Below are positions 9,764 to 53,016 of a stretch of DNA of 64,000 nucleotides, piece by piece (positions within the stretch are counted from its first letter, which is position 1; every line of letters begins with the position of its first letter). The notes beneath the pieces are model-generated. The model had not been told where the DNA came from. It did not search any database and saw nothing but the letters and a program-made list of their open reading frames with translations. This DNA comes from Flavobacteriia bacterium (lineage in GTDB: Bacteria; Bacteroidota; Bacteroidia; Flavobacteriales; Schleiferiaceae), in contig JABXHW010000012.1 in the NCBI GenBank assembly GCA_013373425.1, positions 1 through 64,000 on the forward strand, written 5' to 3'. A program made the position numbers and the translations under genes.

Positions 9764-9898
9764 TAGCGCGTCACTTTGCGTTTGGAAAGATTGAGTGGGT
9801 AATGATTAGGGAGCTCTACAGGATGGGAAAGAGTTGCCTGATGAGAGATTCACAGACGCAGAAATCGCTCAAGGATCGGTATGGCGGAGGGCGTTGAT

Positions 9899-10089
9899 GC
9901 CCGGGGCCGGTTCCCTCGGCCCCAATCTCAAGTTCGGAGTATTCTTCCGGATTGCGCCGATTCTCACCACACAGATATGTGATTCACACTAAAGAAATTT
10001 TAGAGGCGTAAGTAAACGTTTGCCCTCCGACTATTATCCAAGACCATCACTAACTTGATGGTGGGGCAGCGGGTGCTGCCCCCAGGGGC
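9899..10089. repeat. 190-bp inverted-repeat element, copy 1
   Basis: A palindrome-ended element with imperfect GC-rich terminal inverted repeats: the left end begins GCCCGGGGCCGG and the right end has TTGATGGTGGGGCAGCGG. Inside are a GTGATTCAC palindrome and the block GTAAGTAAACGTTTGCCCTC. The same parts recur in order at 31069-31256 (opposite orientation) and 52767-52957. Conservation may extend about 13 bp beyond both ends. There is no coding capacity, so it resembles a MITE or REP-type sequence. Confidence 0.85.
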
Positions 10090-10190
10090 TCGCTCCGCCC
10101 TACCCATGATTCTACCAAAGGTCCCAGCGACAACTCCACGAGATTCTGTACCGTACATTAACCGATAGTAGCACCCCCACTTTGGACCAA

Positions 10191-14769: not shown

Positions 14770-15258
14770 ATGTCGTACTCAATCCGTAAAATACAGGAGC
14801 AAGATAACGCTGCGGTGGCGCGAATGATTCGCGAAGTCTTTGAAGAACACGGCGCGCCAACATGTGGAACGGTGTACTCAGATCCCACAACTGATACTTT
14901 GTTCGAAGTATTTCAGCGCGACCAATCGGTTTACTTCGTGGCGTTAGTCGGCGAGAGGATTGTTGGCGGTTGCGGTATATATCCAACGAATGGATTGCCA
15001 GACGGCTATGCCGAGTTGGTGAAATTCTACCTGTCCGCGGATGCACGGGGAAAAGGGATTGGTCGAGAGCTCATGGAGAAAAGCTTTGAAGCCGCAGAGA
15101 AAATGGGCTATCAGTATCTCTACCTTGAGAGCCTACCTGTCTTCGATAAAGCCGTTCGGATTTATGAGAAGCAGGGGTTCAAGCGGTTAGAAGAGCCGTT
15201 GAGTACGGAACATCCGGGGTGTAATCTTTGGTTTGTGAAGGGGTTAGAGGGCAACTAG
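14770..15258 (+). CDS. GNAT family N-acetyltransferase
   Basis: A 162-residue cytoplasmic protein starting at the ATG at 14770; an upstream ATG at 14740 would overlap the start of the divergent serine hydrolase and adds ten unlike residues. The acetyl-CoA motif A is visible as ADARGKGIGRELMEKSF, followed by YLYLES and the end motif KAVRIYEKQGF. GNAT enzymes move an acetyl group from acetyl-CoA to an amine; the acceptor here is unknown. The gene ends just before a heptamer array. Confidence 0.88.
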   Translation: MSYSIRKIQEQDNAAVARMIREVFEEHGAPTCGTVYSDPTTDTLFEVFQRDQSVYFVALVGERIVGGCGIYPTNGLPDGYAELVKFYLSADARGKGIGRELMEKSFEAAEKMGYQYLYLESLPVFDKAVRIYEKQGFKRLEEPLSTEHPGCNLWFVKGLEGN

Positions 15259-15285
15259 CAACTGGCACTTAGCACTTGGCACTGT
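15251..15285. repeat. Heptamer array (GCACTTG-type)
   Basis: Five 7-bp units: GCAACTA, GCAACTG, GCACTTA, GCACTTG and GCACTGT. The first unit overlaps the stop codon of the acetyltransferase. It leads directly into the first copy of a 61-bp core repeat. Confidence 0.8.
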
Positions 15286-15343
15286 TGGGGCGAGGGTATC
15301 ATGTGCTTATTATCAACTCGAGAGTCGTATTAACCTGAGCACC
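15283..15343. repeat. 61-bp core repeat, copy 1
   Basis: This runs from TGTTGGGG to TGAGCACC. It aligns without gaps to 15380-15440 and 16202-16262; shared blocks include GAGGGTATCATG, ATCAACTCG and AACCTGAGCACC. It is preceded by a heptamer array and followed by 8-bp-period units. Confidence 0.85.
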
Positions 15344-15349
15344 TCGTCA

Positions 15350-15384
15350 CCTAAGCACTTTGCACGTAGCACTTAGCTCTGTTG
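15350..15384. repeat. Heptamer array (ACTTAGC-type)
   Basis: Five 7-bp units, CCTAAGC, ACTTTGC, ACGTAGC, ACTTAGC and TCTGTTG, leading directly into the second 61-bp core. Confidence 0.7.
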
Positions 15385-15440
15385 CGGTGAGGGTATCATG
15401 GGTTTATTGCCAACTCGTGAGCCGTGCCAACCTGAGCACC
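15380..15440. repeat. 61-bp core repeat, copy 2
   Basis: A second, ungapped copy of the 61-bp core, again with a heptamer array on its left and an octamer array on its right. Confidence 0.85.
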
Positions 15441-15464
15441 TTAACACCTGCACACCTCCCCACC
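15433..15464. repeat. Octamer array (TNNNCACC-type)
   Basis: Four 8-bp units, TGAGCACC, TTAACACC, TGCACACC and TCCCCACC, ending 2 bp from the stop codon of the minus-strand gene at 15466. Confidence 0.8.
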
Positions 15465-15465
15465 T

Positions 15466-16140
15466 TCAGTACATCATCACTGCCGGTACAATGTTGTGTA
15501 CTTGCTTGAACTTGCGACCTAGTTCCGAGTTGGTGTTGAAATTTACCGACGTGCCAACAACTTCGTATTCAACGTAACTGTGCATCGACTTACTATCCTC
15601 GTTTGCGTGCCAGAAGAACTTGATATTATCTGCTCGTAGGATTTTCGTGTAGGTGTCCACTTCGTAGATTTTATCAGGATTCCTGACTTCCAAACGAGAG
15701 CCAGAATTGAATTCGAATGACAAGGTGTTACCCTCAAAAGAGATAGCTACAATCTGACGGGCTTTTCGATCTAGTTTATGCAGTTTTACGCCTAAGACTT
15801 CTATTCTCCTCACCCCATTGAAAAGATGAGTTCCCACCTTAAAATTTTCTTGCAACTCTTGAGCGGTCCTACGCTTTACCGAACTACCCTTAGCAGGAAT
15901 GAGGTGGTCTAAATCTGGAGAATGGCTGGCGTGAGGAGCAGTATGGATATCATTAATATTTCTATTCTTGATTGCCTTGTAAAATGCGGAAGTGGCAATG
16001 GTAAAGATCAACGCAGTAATTATCCAACCTAATTCTCCCCAACCGGCTTGCACAGCGGATAAGCCAATGAGTAGCGCAACGCCTAGCACCCCTAAATAGA
16101 CGAGGACATTTCTTATGATGATATAGATTTCTCTTAGCAT
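15466..16140 (-). CDS. Hypothetical membrane-anchored protein
   Basis: A 224-residue protein, not recognised. Two membrane segments lie near residues 11-31 and 37-53, followed by a basic loop and a soluble domain of about 150 residues with alternating strands, for example IEVLGVKLHKL and RQIVAISFEGN. The topology would place the soluble part in the cytoplasm if the N-terminus is inside. Its gene is flanked on both sides by the 7-bp/61-bp/8-bp repeat modules, so it may have been moved with them. No enzyme motif is visible. Confidence 0.7.
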   Translation of the reverse strand: MLREIYIIIRNVLVYLGVLGVALLIGLSAVQAGWGELGWIITALIFTIATSAFYKAIKNRNINDIHTAPHASHSPDLDHLIPAKGSSVKRRTAQELQENFKVGTHLFNGVRRIEVLGVKLHKLDRKARQIVAISFEGNTLSFEFNSGSRLEVRNPDKIYEVDTYTKILRADNIKFFWHANEDSKSMHSYVEYEVVGTSVNFNTNSELGRKFKQVHNIVPAVMMY

Positions 16141-16174
16141 GGGTTGTATCCTCTTTCTAGATTCGTGTGAATTT

Positions 16175-16202
16175 TAGCAACAGACAACAGGCAAATTGCT
16201 CT
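16175..16202. repeat. Heptamer array before the third core
   Basis: Units TAGCAAC, AGACAAC, AGGCAAA and TTGCTCT, less regular than the other arrays, leading into the third 61-bp core. Confidence 0.5.
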
Positions 16203-16262
16203 ATTGGTGCGAGGGTGTCATGGGCTTAATATCAACTCGTGAGTCGTACTAACCTGAGCACC
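16202..16262. repeat. 61-bp core repeat, copy 3
   Basis: A third ungapped copy of the core, beginning TATTGGTGCGAGGG and ending in AACCTGAGCACC, about 760 bp from copy 2 and in the same orientation. Confidence 0.85.
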
Positions 16263-16286
16263 TCTACACCTGTGCACCTGCCAACC
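16255..16286. repeat. Octamer array (TNNNCACC-type), second
   Basis: Four 8-bp units, TGAGCACC, TCTACACC, TGTGCACC and TGCCAACC, ending next to the stop codon of the lipoprotein gene at 16289. Confidence 0.8.
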
Positions 16287-16288
16287 TC

Positions 16289-17596
16289 TCAAAACTGCGT
16301 AAACTCTTCCTCCACAACATACTCAAGCCAAAGTCGACGGGCGAAATTAACAAACGCTACAGGCTGACCTTCGAAGTCGTTTTCATCGGCATAGCGACCT
16401 TCCATTTCTCTCCTAGCAGCTTGTGAAGTCATGGATGCGGTATCTATCCTGGAATAGTCGGGATCAAATAAGGATTGCGAGTGAAGCGACTCTCTACGCT
16501 TGCCGAAGTTGTCAAACTTCAACATCATCAATCCTTCCAAAGCCATCCGAGACTCGCCCTCATACATCACGACAAAGAGGTCCGATGGCGACATATCTCC
16601 TCTGCATGCCCCGTTATATGCAAATGTGGTTTCTGTAATGCCATTGCGATTTAAATCGGTAAGACGAATTGAGCCAGGAAGAACACCCATCCACATGTCT
16701 AATGGGCAGTCACGGATCGAGTCGGTTTCTTCCCAAAGAAGCTTAAACACACCGCCTTCTGAAAAGTATTGGGCTATTCTCAAGTCCACGTTATCTCGGT
16801 CTTCACCGTGATTTTCAGTTGTGGAATAGGGCCCTTTTCTAGATGATACCAGCACATATTCTAGGTTGCCTGATTTCCATTCAAAAGCCTGAAGAATTTC
16901 AAAATCAGCGATTACACACTCCACGGGAACTTGACTTGGTAGTAACTCTGAATAAGATACGTCTTTGCTCAATTCTGTACGGCCAAGTCGGTTAAGCCTG
17001 ATACGCTCCGATTGTTCAGCCTCCACTGCTGGATCACGAACGATTTCAGATCCTACTTCGTACACGCGAAGCTGGTCTAGGCACCAGCCGGGGTTGTCCA
17101 TTTGTTCGAGTAGACTGGCCTGACAATGAATTTGATAACCTCCAATTTCAAGTCGGCCATCGTTGTCGATATCCTCGATGAATTCTGCCGTTGTCGGCCC
17201 CGTTTTCCCAATCAATTTGATATTTCCAGAATGGAATTCAAAAACATAGAAGCCGTGGGGCTCCGGACGATTATCCCATTTGATCAACAGATAAGTTTTG
17301 TCGCCCACTTCGAAGACATTCTCATCTAAGATGAACCGATATGCCGCGAGTTCCAGGTCATTTTCATTAAGCGTGATGAGCGTATCTCGTCCGCTTCTCA
17401 CGTCTAATCGTCCAAACCAATTCAAGTCGTTTTCAGAGTAGATGAACTCTACATTTTGATACGTTTGGATGACCGTAGAATCTTGTACTCCGGTACTTTT
17501 AGATTCACCAGTATTCGAAGTTTCAGGGCTCTCTGAACACGAGAAGAGAAGTCCAGAAACGGCAAGGGCTAGGAAGAGACGAAGGCGAGGGTGCAC
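16289..17596 (-). CDS. Lipoprotein, M949_RS01915-like
   Basis: A 435-residue lipoprotein with lipobox LLFSC (Cys20) and a probable GTG start. Two halves are visible. The N-terminal one has an FG-GAP-like acidic turn, DIDNDGRLEIGG (near 145). The C-terminal one has LTDLNRNGITETTF, then CRGDMSPSDLFVVMYEG and a final WLEYVVEE. The second half resembles the flavobacterial M949_RS01915 family, named as a surface polysaccharide biosynthesis protein; this is from memory and not a search result. Its actual role is unproven. The gene stands alone between repeats and the gene at 17662. Confidence 0.7.
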   Translation of the reverse strand: MHPRLRLFLALAVSGLLFSCSESPETSNTGESKSTGVQDSTVIQTYQNVEFIYSENDLNWFGRLDVRSGRDTLITLNENDLELAAYRFILDENVFEVGDKTYLLIKWDNRPEPHGFYVFEFHSGNIKLIGKTGPTTAEFIEDIDNDGRLEIGGYQIHCQASLLEQMDNPGWCLDQLRVYEVGSEIVRDPAVEAEQSERIRLNRLGRTELSKDVSYSELLPSQVPVECVIADFEILQAFEWKSGNLEYVLVSSRKGPYSTTENHGEDRDNVDLRIAQYFSEGGVFKLLWEETDSIRDCPLDMWMGVLPGSIRLTDLNRNGITETTFAYNGACRGDMSPSDLFVVMYEGESRMALEGLMMLKFDNFGKRRESLHSQSLFDPDYSRIDTASMTSQAARREMEGRYADENDFEGQPVAFVNFARRLWLEYVVEEEFTQF

Positions 17597-18215: not shown

Positions 18216-18251
18216 CCTGCGCACTTGCGTTCCTGCGCTCCTCCCTACCTC
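18216..18251. repeat. Octamer array overlapping a stop codon
   Basis: Units CCTGCGCA, CTTGCGTT, CCTGCGCT and CCTCCCTA plus CCTC. The fourth unit contains the stop codon of the minus-strand acetyltransferase at 18245. The consensus resembles that of the array at 2105-2140. Confidence 0.75.
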
Positions 18252-18679
18252 AAAACCTTCTTCATCTTCAAGTGCGGAATTCCGTCTTCATCGAAGTAAT
18301 CACCCTCAGGGGAGTAGGAATTTCTAAGGTAAAAGTTCACAGCACTATCACGTGCATGACAGTAGACGGACGTGCGATTTGATCGGAGTATATAGTCTTC
18401 ACAAAACGCCATCATGTCGGAACCGATATTCGAGCTTCTGAGTTTTTCAGCAACTACTACGCGCTGCATTTTGAAAGCGTCAGGTTCTGGGACAAGAACG
18501 GTCGTAGCAATGATTTTATCGTCGATTAGCCCTGCGATTTGAATATGGCTCTTCTCCTCTTCGAGCTCTTCTGAGGTAAACTTCAATCCAAATGGAGCAC
18601 GCAGGATGCCTTCGCGTAAACGAACGGCTTCCTTCCACTTTTCGCTACCGTAAGGGATAATTTCAAATCGGGCTTTCAT
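18245..18679 (-). CDS. GNAT family N-acetyltransferase
   Basis: About 144 residues from the ATG at 18679; the longer frame from 18748 begins with an Arg-rich stretch that overlaps thiL and is not credible. The core resembles the YitH/ElaA-like GNAT branch: VRLREGILRAPFGL at the start, FKMQRVVVAEKLRSSNIG as acetyl-CoA motif A, and YCHARDSAVNFYLRNSY near the end. The C-terminus and stop lie inside an octamer repeat. It sits 29 bp downstream of thiL on the same strand. The substrate is unknown. Confidence 0.85.
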   Translation of the reverse strand: MKARFEIIPYGSEKWKEAVRLREGILRAPFGLKFTSEELEEEKSHIQIAGLIDDKIIATTVLVPEPDAFKMQRVVVAEKLRSSNIGSDMMAFCEDYILRSNRTSVYCHARDSAVNFYLRNSYSPEGDYFDEDGIPHLKMKKVLR

Positions 18680-18708: not shown

Positions 18709-19767
18709 TTACTCGTCTTCTCCTTCTTCTTCCTGAAGCGGGTTCCAACCCTGTGCAGTGAGTTCGATGGCCACGTCGTCTCGAGTGACGAGATAACGAT
18801 TCTCATCCTCGGTAATGTGACCCACGACGCTCATGTTGGGGTTGCCTTTTATCTTCTCAAAATCTTCAAGCTTGATAGTGAAGAGCAACTCGTAATCTTC
18901 ACCGCCATTTAGGGCAACAGTGGTAGTGTTCAAATTGAATTCTTCACACAAGTCGTACACCTGCGGGTCGATTGGAATTTTCTCTTCAAAAAGGCGGCAT
19001 CCTTTCTTGGATGATTCACAGATGTGAAGGAGTTCGGACGATAAGCCATCTGAGATATCAATCATCGAAGTTGGAGTTACTTCGAGCTTCTCGAGCATGG
19101 CAATAATATCCTGTCGAGCTTCGGGTTTAAGCTGGCGCTCTAGAACGTACTCGTTTCCTTGGAGGTCGGGCTGTACATCTGGATTGTCGATGAAAACGGC
19201 CTTTTCTCTTTCGAGAATTTGAAGGCCCATGTAAGCACCACCGAGGTCGCCTGAAACCACAATCAAGTCGCTAGGCTGAGCGCCAGAACGGCGAGCAATC
19301 TTCTCTTCAGGAGCGCTACCGATTACTGTTAAACTAAGGATTAGTCCGGATGTGCTAGAAGTGGTATCGCCTCCTACGAGGTCAACTTGAAACCGCTCGC
19401 AAGCATGACGAAGACCTTTGTAGATTTCCTCAACCGCTTCAACAGGAAAGCGATTCGATACTGCGATAGACACTAGGAGCTGAGTTGCCTTTCCGTTCAT
19501 CGCATAGATATCCGACAAGTTGACCATAGCAGCTTTGTAGCCGAGATGTGTAAGCGGCATATAGCTGAGGTCGAAGTGAACACCTTCCACGAGCATGTCG
19601 GTGCTGATTAGGGTCTGCTCATCGCGCTTTTTCACGATGGCGGCATCATCACCAACACCCAACTCGGTGTCGTTGTACAATGGTATGTCTTTGGTCAAAT
19701 GACGGATGAGTCCGAATTCTCCCAATTCCCCTAGTGGCGTGCGTTGCGGATTCTTGTCTTCTAGCAT
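18709..19767 (-). CDS. thiL: Thiamine-phosphate kinase
   Basis: About 352 residues from the ATG at 19767. The longer frame to 19848 has a non-conserved N-terminus and passes through the -7-like box. ThiL phosphorylates thiamine monophosphate to the active cofactor thiamine diphosphate with ATP. Diagnostic pieces are ELGEFGLIRHL, GDDAAIV, STDMLVEGVHFD, VDLVGGDTTSS and NGGEDYELLF. Length is normal. A TACCTTTG box 5 bp upstream (19772-19779, minus) suggests a very short leader. A decayed copy of the middle of this gene lies 3.8 kb away at 22985-23215. Confidence 0.95.
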   Translation of the reverse strand: MLEDKNPQRTPLGELGEFGLIRHLTKDIPLYNDTELGVGDDAAIVKKRDEQTLISTDMLVEGVHFDLSYMPLTHLGYKAAMVNLSDIYAMNGKATQLLVSIAVSNRFPVEAVEEIYKGLRHACERFQVDLVGGDTTSSTSGLILSLTVIGSAPEEKIARRSGAQPSDLIVVSGDLGGAYMGLQILEREKAVFIDNPDVQPDLQGNEYVLERQLKPEARQDIIAMLEKLEVTPTSMIDISDGLSSELLHICESSKKGCRLFEEKIPIDPQVYDLCEEFNLNTTTVALNGGEDYELLFTIKLEDFEKIKGNPNMSVVGHITEDENRYLVTRDDVAIELTAQGWNPLQEEEGEDE

Positions 19768-22984: not shown

Positions 22985-23215
22985 TGAGGATAGATGAAAA
23001 TCTCGTTGTCTCATTCAAGATTTTAAAGCTCCATGTAAGCTCCGCTAAAGCCGCCTAAAACTACAATCAAGTCACTGGGTTTTGGCCAGAACGGCGAGCA
23101 GTTTTCTCTTCTGGAGCGTTGCCGATTTCGGTCAACTCAGGAAGAGCCTGGATGTGCTAGAGGGTGTCGCCGCCAACGAAACCTCGTTGAAAACGCTCGT
23201 AAGCATGATAATAGC
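22985..23215 (-). pseudogene. Decayed partial copy of thiL
   Basis: On the minus strand this stretch is clearly similar to nucleotides about 19176-19420 inside the intact thiL. Recognisable pieces are APEEK-ARRSG and PSDLIVV-GG-GAYM. An in-frame TAA stands where thiL has CAA, and at least one frameshift separates the pieces. It covers only about residues 115-195 of ThiL, with no 5' or 3' end. It therefore cannot make an enzyme. It lies downstream of the T9SS/PID-CTERM genes, in the same orientation as thiL. Confidence 0.85.
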
Positions 23216-30963: not shown

Positions 30964-31068
30964 GATTGAATAGCTTTAGTTGCTGGATGTGTAGAATGAG
31001 AGGATGAGAAAGAATGAAATGGTGGTTCATTGATAAAGCTTGGCAAGGAAGAATTTTCGCTGTTATTT

Positions 31069-31256
31069 GCCCGGGGCTAGCTCCCGCTGCCCCAGTATCA
31101 AATTACCCATTTCACCTGGCCTTAGTCGGAGGGTAAACGTTTACTTACGACTAGTCAAAACTTTTTGCGTGATTCACGCAGTTTGCCTCTGAGATTCGAA
31201 GATTCACTTTATTATTCCCGAACTTGATGGTGGGGCAGCGGGAGCTGGCCCCGGGC
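31069..31256. repeat. 190-bp inverted-repeat element, copy 2
   Basis: The best preserved copy (188 bp). Its 33-bp terminal inverted repeats (31069-31101 and 31224-31256) match at 30 of 33 positions by eye. Inside are GGTAAACGTTTACTTACG and a GTGATTCAC palindrome, in reverse order relative to copies 1 and 3, so this copy is inverted. It lies between the DUF4279-like gene and an octamer array. No obvious target duplication was seen. Confidence 0.88.
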
Positions 31257-31281
31257 AGTCCGCCCCTTCCATTCTGCCGGT

Positions 31282-52766: not shown

Positions 52767-52957
52767 GCCCCCGGGGGCGAGTCCCTCGACCCCTCCATTA
52801 AGTTCGGAAGTAATTTCTCAAGATTTGGAATCTCAGCGGGTAATTGTGTGAATCACGTTAAAGTTGAAATTCGTCGGAATCTTAGCCGTTTACCATACGA
52901 CTAGTGCTGTGGAATTGCGCTAACTTGATATTGGGGCAGCGGGAGCTGGCCCCGGGC
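52767..52957. repeat. 190-bp inverted-repeat element, copy 3
   Basis: The left end begins GCCCCCGGGGGCGAG and the right end is TTGATATTGGGGCAGCGG with GCTGGCCCCGGGC. Inside are GTGAATCAC and a CCGTTTACCATACG block, in the same order as copy 1. It lies between octamer arrays and the deacetylase gene, in a gap of 470 bp. Confidence 0.85.
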
Positions 52958-53016
52958 ATGCCACCCCTCCAAGCTCGATTGCTTCACATCCTATCTCTTT
53001 TCCTAACTTCGTACTT

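Follow-up and report, generated by a model that had tools for sequence, protein, structure and literature searches.

Short intergenic repeats of a Schleiferiaceae genome tend to carry heptamer arrays on one side of a core and octamer arrays on the other

The closest published picture to the repeats described here is that of the convergent heptamer pairs of Xanthomonas, as presented in the accessible portions of Rehm et al. 2015 (PMC4692102). According to those portions, heptameric intergenic repeats occur in Xanthomonas (GGGAATC) and Nostoc (GGGGAYT), where the arrays lie a mean of 28 nt from the 5′ neighboring ORF and farther from the one downstream; Xanthomonas has 70–75 convergent array pairs in close proximity, oligonucleotides of similar heptamers form G-quadruplexes (G4), and heptamers of Calothrix are also mentioned (PMC4692102). 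Many bacteria have an excess of heptamer arrays, for which polymerase slippage is a proposed cause and a 7-nt polymerase contact has also been proposed (available text of PMC4692102 and PMC4679880). TAACTGA heptamer repeats have likewise been described by MacGregor 2015 in the Beggiatoaceae, Cyanobacteria, and some Bacteroidetes (available text of PMC4679880).

The repeats in the present genome resemble those of Xanthomonas and Nostoc in being genome-dispersed intergenic arrays of period 7 with convergent pairs; there, however, a pair consists of heptamers on both sides, and neither an octamer partner nor interchangeable cores were found in the accessible part of that paper (PMC4692102). The TAGCACT units seen here are also not G-rich, unlike the Xanthomonas and Nostoc heptamers given in the same text (PMC4692102). 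With the TAACTGA repeats they share short heptamer direct repeats in gaps, a patchy occurrence, and some overlap with stop codons, whereas the TAACTGA repeats lie mostly just 5′ of start codons, have a single unit, and form no composite in the available part of the source (PMC4679880). No published composite of 7- and 8-bp arrays was found in our literature search, which had thin coverage of subscription journals. Heptamer arrays and their convergent pairs are already known; what looks new here is the presence of octamer partners, a 7/8 polarity, and cores that are interchangeable.

The window, i.e., the whole 64,000-nt stretch of DNA analyzed, contains three 61-bp cores (15283–15343, 15380–15440, and 16202–16262, here A, B, and C; all module features are given on the forward strand) that align without gaps, as the first-pass annotation had proposed, and share 50, 54, and 49 of 61 bases in pairwise comparison. 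That annotation also placed 7-bp units on the left and octamers on the right of every core. On the left this was borne out, with a best lag of 7 for all three flanks (scores of 16, 11, and 8), albeit weakly in copy C. On the right it held for copies B and C (best lag of 8; scores of 16 and 13) and not for copy A, whose octamers are short (~3 units, 15332–15352, lag-8 score of 6) and merge into the heptamers of the next module, such that the best lag becomes 7 (score of 9). The heptamer pattern was matched 10 times in the window (2.3 expected by chance) and the octamer pattern eight times (0.15 expected).

Modules A and B, arranged head to tail, occupy the entire gap between two convergent ORFs (stops ending at 15258 and 15466). 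The TAGCACT-like left array of module A (15251–15283) contains the TAG stop codon of the upstream ORF (15256–15258), the left array of module B (15353–15384) was recognized by both heptamer pattern and lag score, and the right array of module B (15430–15465, CACCTNNN) adjoins the stop codon (at 15466) of the ORF that faces it. This reverse-strand ORF (15466–16140, 224 a.a.), which returned no Pfam match, thus has modules on either side. Copy C sits in the 148-bp gap between it and the ORF at 16289–17596, with a left array at 16175–16202 and a right array at 16252–16292 that extends to, and overlaps, the stop codon of the latter ORF at 16289.

A further module carries another core. The same order of heptamer then octamer, which had been noted around a 240-bp core, was confirmed by the array census, with a period-7 array at 1837–1862, the core at 1863–2102, and a period-8 array at 2105–2139. 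For most of its length the 240-bp core is, as had been claimed, unrelated to the 61-bp core; the exceptions are its end part (2085–2131), which weakly fits the model built on the window modules (E = 0.011), and a ACTCNNGAG motif ~20 bp ahead of the octamers. The core terminates in a ACTCTTGAG motif, and 33 nt of it match a stretch on another contig that is REP-like by eye. The census also called an octamer array at 18218–18258 (forward strand) without a called heptamer array alongside, and a pattern search placed a (GGGTACT) heptamer array at the very end of the contig (1–23, reverse strand).

Two other kinds of repeat were observed in the window. GC-rich inverted repeats (TGGGGCAGCGGGAGCTNGCCCCGGGCA), found in five places (9886–10098, 31068–31267, and 52921–52970), form a separate REP/BIME-like family, to which a cluster of eight array flanks (two in the window) probably also belongs. 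In addition, 19189–19359 and 22993–23161 are 76–84% alike with their parts in the same order, and the latter segment, which lies outside the listed ORFs, may be what is left of a duplicated gene.

The source genome (3.09 Mb, 76 contigs, 96% complete) was sampled for arrays over 755,257 bases of six contigs (three in part) comprising 378 gaps, as set by simple ORF calls of ≥90 a.a. that will miss some small genes. This sample held 29 intergenic period-7 arrays and 46 intergenic period-8 arrays, compared to 0.4 and 0.2, respectively, in single-base shuffles, while all other periods from 4 to 20 gave 0–4 arrays each, apart from the multiples 14 (18) and 16 (35). The 7-bp excess that marks heptameric simple-sequence repeats is therefore present, and period 8 is equally enriched. 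Unit sequences vary among arrays (TAGCACT, GGGTACT, GGATACT, GRGTRAC, and TGGTCTC for the heptamers; CACCTGAG, TCCTGCGC, CACCAGCT, ACGTCCGC, and TCCAGTNN for the octamers), with the period fixed at 7 or 8. Given that many contigs (C1, C37, C38, C45, C55, C57, and others) terminate in GGGTACT arrays, at which the assembly breaks, the copy numbers are underestimates. On the reverse strand of one locus (L109, ~600–660), a switch of unit length was caught, where an octamer array (TCCTGCGT) becomes a 7-bp array (TTCTGCG, seven times) by the loss of one C.

Four core families with a total of 26 copies were recognized, in which the left flank had a period of 7 in 24 copies (13 of the 26 having been selected via the left array) and the right flank a period of 8 in 19; the reverse arrangement, 8 on the left with 7 on the right, was seen in none. 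The flank check proposed for the core copies was thus largely passed. The window family comprises five copies on one contig (left lag of 7 in 5/5, right lag of 8 in 4/5). With core B as the query, only the three window cores were returned from the whole source genome at E ≤ 0.001; a model of the three cores added a match at C38:100952 (E = 1.2 × 10^-4) in the source-genome sequence examined, to which C38:97254 is a near copy. A module model that includes the arrays ranked the five members at the top, followed by seven weaker matches that lean on the array sequences and the junction on the right, and a core-only model found nothing past the five members in the source-genome sequence examined save one chance-level match.

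Family E is built of (GGGTACT)n GGGTACA, a ~55-bp core, a few GGATACT/AATACTC-type units, and then octamers, and is represented by 15 copies across 14 contigs, with one further copy on C11. Its left flank has a period of 7 in 15/15 copies, a count that is largely by construction, as 13 of them were picked by the left array; the best right lag is 8 in 11/15 and 7 in 4/15. Column identity among the copies is 95% in the left array, 62% in the core, 76% in the inner heptamers, and 54% at the octamer start. Plain slippage would predict arrays drifting like the core, so this pattern suggests that the unit is constrained or that arrays are exchanged between loci. The contrast is overstated because 13 copies were chosen by exact GGGTACT units, and the unselected inner heptamers exceed the core by a smaller margin; we regard the array constancy as a lead, not a proof.

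The remaining two families, (iii) and (iv), have three copies each on contig C63, spread over 6–34 kb in the sequence examined, with TAGCACT-like left units and CACCTGAG-like right units (left 7 in 4/6 and right 8 in 4/6 at the threshold used). The ACTCNNGAG motif ~20 bp ahead of the octamers occurs in 4/5 window-family copies (the fifth having ACTCAAGGA) and at locus L010, as well as in the 1837–2139 module, with looser variants in family (iii). The 61-bp core is accordingly not the defining part, since other cores carry the same ends, and the presence of conserved cores in several families sets the modules apart from heptameric simple-sequence repeats, which are arrays only. Another core family is seen at C47:21003–21291 (L057, L073), where an octamer array accompanies tandem copies of a ~90-bp unit that are nearly identical (94% over 86 nt).

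The polarity of the modules was assessed in several ways. When oriented by unit motif, 41 heptamer arrays had an octamer array within 300 bp, located on the right in 39 (33 on the same strand and six on the opposite strand) and on the left in two. By family, with an array able to enter two families, the right/left counts were 25/1 for GGATACT, 16/0 for GGGTACT, and 6/1 for TAGCACT, with three or fewer for each of the others. Because the orientation assigned to each family's heptamer motif was chosen by us, only agreement within a family counts as evidence, and many of the GGGTACT and GGATACT pairings are copies of one family and, hence, not independent. Orienting instead by G over C at a stricter threshold in the source genome gave an 8-bp array on the right and C-rich in six of nine cases, and on the left and G-rich in the other three; the TAGCACT type is itself C-rich on the motif strand.

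Among converging pairs within 300 bp on the census contigs, 11 were 7|8, five were 8|8, and one was 7|7, and with homologous copies set aside the excess of 7|8 pairs over chance pairing is modest. The first-pass annotation had proposed a defined composite with distinct left and right ends rather than random satellites; the composite is supported, whereas its distinct ends are a tendency and not a rule, given the 8|8 and 7|7 pairs and the composition result above, and a strict 7|8 rule is rejected. A link between unit length and the strand being replicated, with 7-bp units on one and 8-bp units on the other, was likewise rejected, because both orientations of each period occur within single contigs. 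An orientation driven by G-richness in the transcription sense was unsupported in the tandem gaps of the source genome (17 vs. 20).

Arrays are unevenly distributed between genes. Among gaps of ≥40 bp, arrays were held by 18/53 convergent, 28/184 tandem, and 4/91 divergent gaps. Heptamer arrays located 3′ of a co-oriented ORF often begin at its stop codon, with 23 of 41 starting within −12 to +6 nt of it, and the distinct stops linked to arrays are TAG in 13/22 cases, compared to 129/548 ORFs of ≥150 a.a., an excess that presumably arises because arrays can contribute the TAG themselves.

Across 40 genomes (the source and relatives), the TAGCAC pattern was found in the source and as one match elsewhere, while GGGTACT arrays were abundant in the source, present as GGTTACT in a member of another family (G025), and represented by one to two matches in three others. 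Sampled sequence from G025 held nine period-7 arrays and one period-8 array in 117 kb, that from a member of the same genus (G001) one and none in 160 kb, and that from G005 none of either in 120 kb. The octamer pattern was matched 36 times in the source (reversed control, six), twice in G022, once in G004, and not at all in the remaining 23 of the 26 genomes of the family. Neither of the two congeners searched (G001 and G002) had a match to family E or to the window module model, and under strict filters the latter gave just two weak matches (E = 0.015 and 0.023) among 295 further genomes from the order. Two array gaps could be compared with their orthologs in G001, a distant congener, and measured 188 vs. 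54 bp and 125 vs. 227 bp (source first), the former pair being suggestive of presence vs. absence and the latter not; empty sites in G001 were set aside, as the comparison is too distant (79 orthologs, 58% identity).

The GGGTACT unit is itself widespread. Three units with ≤2 mismatches occur in 17 of 395 phylum genomes, with the source counted, and an exact 20-mer of the repeat was found in at least 106 stretches from many phyla in a scan of named genomes. At the loci examined elsewhere, the array is mostly isolated or near other heptamer arrays, and the octamer partner is not general, with period 8 on the right at four and on the left at four of 80 GGGTACT loci from many phyla. In a follow-up within the phylum (18 loci from 16 other matching genomes), an array was callable in 14 genomes, and at the threshold used the right side of these had period 7 or nothing, with the exception of a weak period-8 stretch in G335.

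The 7-left, 8-right frame is repeated in one uncultured Bacteroidetes MAG (G040; loci of 63–69% GC), whose contigs were selected for heptamers and not for octamers. There, a period-8 array lies within 400 bp to the right of 13/18 heptamer arrays (12/17 places, with one double-counted) and to the left of none, the other flanking periods being 9 (six) and 7 (three) on the right and 9 (two) and 6 (one) on the left. Over 247 kb, orientation by G over C placed the 8-bp array on the right within 300 bp in 12/13 pairings (11 C-rich and one G-rich, with the remaining pairing on the left; an array may enter several pairings). Converging next-neighbor pairs in this genome were 7|8 in six cases and 7|7, 7|9, and 8|8 in one case each.

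At roughly even odds (a probability of about 0.5), we read the modules as members of a lineage-specific superfamily: short intergenic repeats, non-coding and non-autonomous, that carry arrays at their ends, with the arrays subsequently altered by slippage. Each module would consist of a ~50–240-bp core flanked by two short-unit tandem arrays, the left end usually of 7 bp (TAGCACT, GGGTACT, and GGATACT types) and the right end usually of 8 bp (CACCTGAG, TCCTGCGC, and ACGTCCGC types). As unlike cores carry the same ends, the arrays would be the constant ends and the cores the passengers, by analogy to families of miniature elements that are moved by one enzyme. Copies would spread as a unit and land in intergenic DNA, often beginning exactly at a stop codon, and the arrays would later gain or lose units by slippage with the unit length unchanged. 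The modules are in this respect like MITEs, which are small, non-coding, and intergenic, with common ends, unrelated interiors, and lineage-specific bursts; the difference is that no clear terminal inverted repeats were seen here, the repeat search having listed no inverted arms within 15251–16287 and the two arrays in G040 being inverted only loosely and by composition, and that the ends are tandem arrays of unlike unit length. They are also like the pneumococcal BOX elements, modular intergenic repeats with distinct sub-parts in a fixed order, although this likeness is by description only and the BOX parts are not 7/8-bp arrays. A likeness also exists to the cyanobacterial STRR, degenerate heptamer arrays in gaps such as those of Calothrix, for which we know of no 7/8 polarity or cores.

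Enzymes that might drive such spread were sought in the source genome, and none was tied to the arrays. Its only Y1 transposase match, a single RAYT-like gene (L268, contig C61, 1405–1893), sits beside different palindromes (CATCGGGTGG...CCCGATG) in its flanks as far as read, and is probably partnered with a different family of repeats. Its only RVT_1 match (L269, contig C44, 1366–2525) is a retron-sized reverse transcriptase of 283 a.a. whose neighbor looks like an XRE-type regulator, with no link to arrays in the flanks read; contig C44 itself terminates in GGGTACT arrays.

A serious rival to a spreading element is that no element exists, and that gaps independently grow 7- and 8-bp arrays by replication slippage, bounded by the flanking genes, with local duplication or gene conversion between neighboring gaps producing the similarity of the cores. 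The excess of heptamers in many bacteria and the proposed 7-nt polymerase contact, as far as given in the available text (PMC4692102, PMC4679880), are in keeping with this, as are the many phyla in which the GGGTACT unit occurs, mostly without nearby octamers. The clustering of window-type core families by contig, with all copies of the window family on one contig and two families within 6–34 kb of C63, suggests local duplication, and it is for the window family above all that this rival is serious. Independent growth does not, however, readily account for homologous family E cores at 15 loci on 14 contigs, for a congener (G001) almost without arrays, or for the recurrence of 7-left and 8-right around a short core in two genomes (although one family's copies are not independent), and overall we consider it rather unlikely. 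Less likely still is that the modules are functional 3′-flank elements that serve, for example, in termination, in protecting transcript ends, or in insulating convergent genes, with the arrays as candidate binding sites for a protein or, in the case of GGGTACT, as G-quadruplexes. The enrichment of arrays at stop codons and between convergent genes, the greater likeness of family E units than of family E cores (with the selection caveat above), and the G4 formation by similar heptamers reported in the accessible text (PMC4692102) would fit such a role. Against it, an ordinary terminator-like hairpin adjoins the module by eye at five loci (L108, L109, L112, L116, and L117), orientation is independent of gene sense in tandem gaps, no fold is conserved, and TAGCACT units have no G runs.

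The conservation of fold bears more directly on a structured RNA or a palindromic (REP/BIME) family whose left and right arrays pair as a stem. The G040 arrays lend this some appeal, being loosely inverted by composition (left G-rich, right mostly C-rich), and one G040 module folds well on its reverse strand (z = −4.5). All other single-strand folds had z-scores of −2.1 to +1.4, mostly near 0, the consensus fold of the 15 family E copies reached −1.74 kcal/mol with no covariation, and Rfam gave no match above the gathering score in the 64-kb window. Units of 7 and 8 bp are, in addition, unable to keep register. The hairpin reading, as RNA or DNA, was rejected on these grounds, the short palindrome that defines REP/BIME did not show in the modules, and this already disfavored explanation is in our view very improbable.

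Returning to the spreading superfamily with array ends, a bolder form of it, to which we give little credence, is that unit length, and not sequence, defines the ends, with a dedicated machine that recognizes or builds 7-bp-phased and 8-bp-phased DNA ends, such as a transposase that would oligomerize along phased sites or a templated addition of arrays. Any intervening DNA could then be carried, which would explain the constant periods across unit sequences, the interchangeable cores, and units that are more alike than cores. A comparison of strains would separate slippage from movement. A genome whose 7- and 8-bp arrays tend to occupy the two opposing ends of small repeats, around cores that are conserved, offers a concrete way in, since its arrays can be investigated as element ends; an enzyme that reads the period, if there is one, would represent a novel means of marking such ends.
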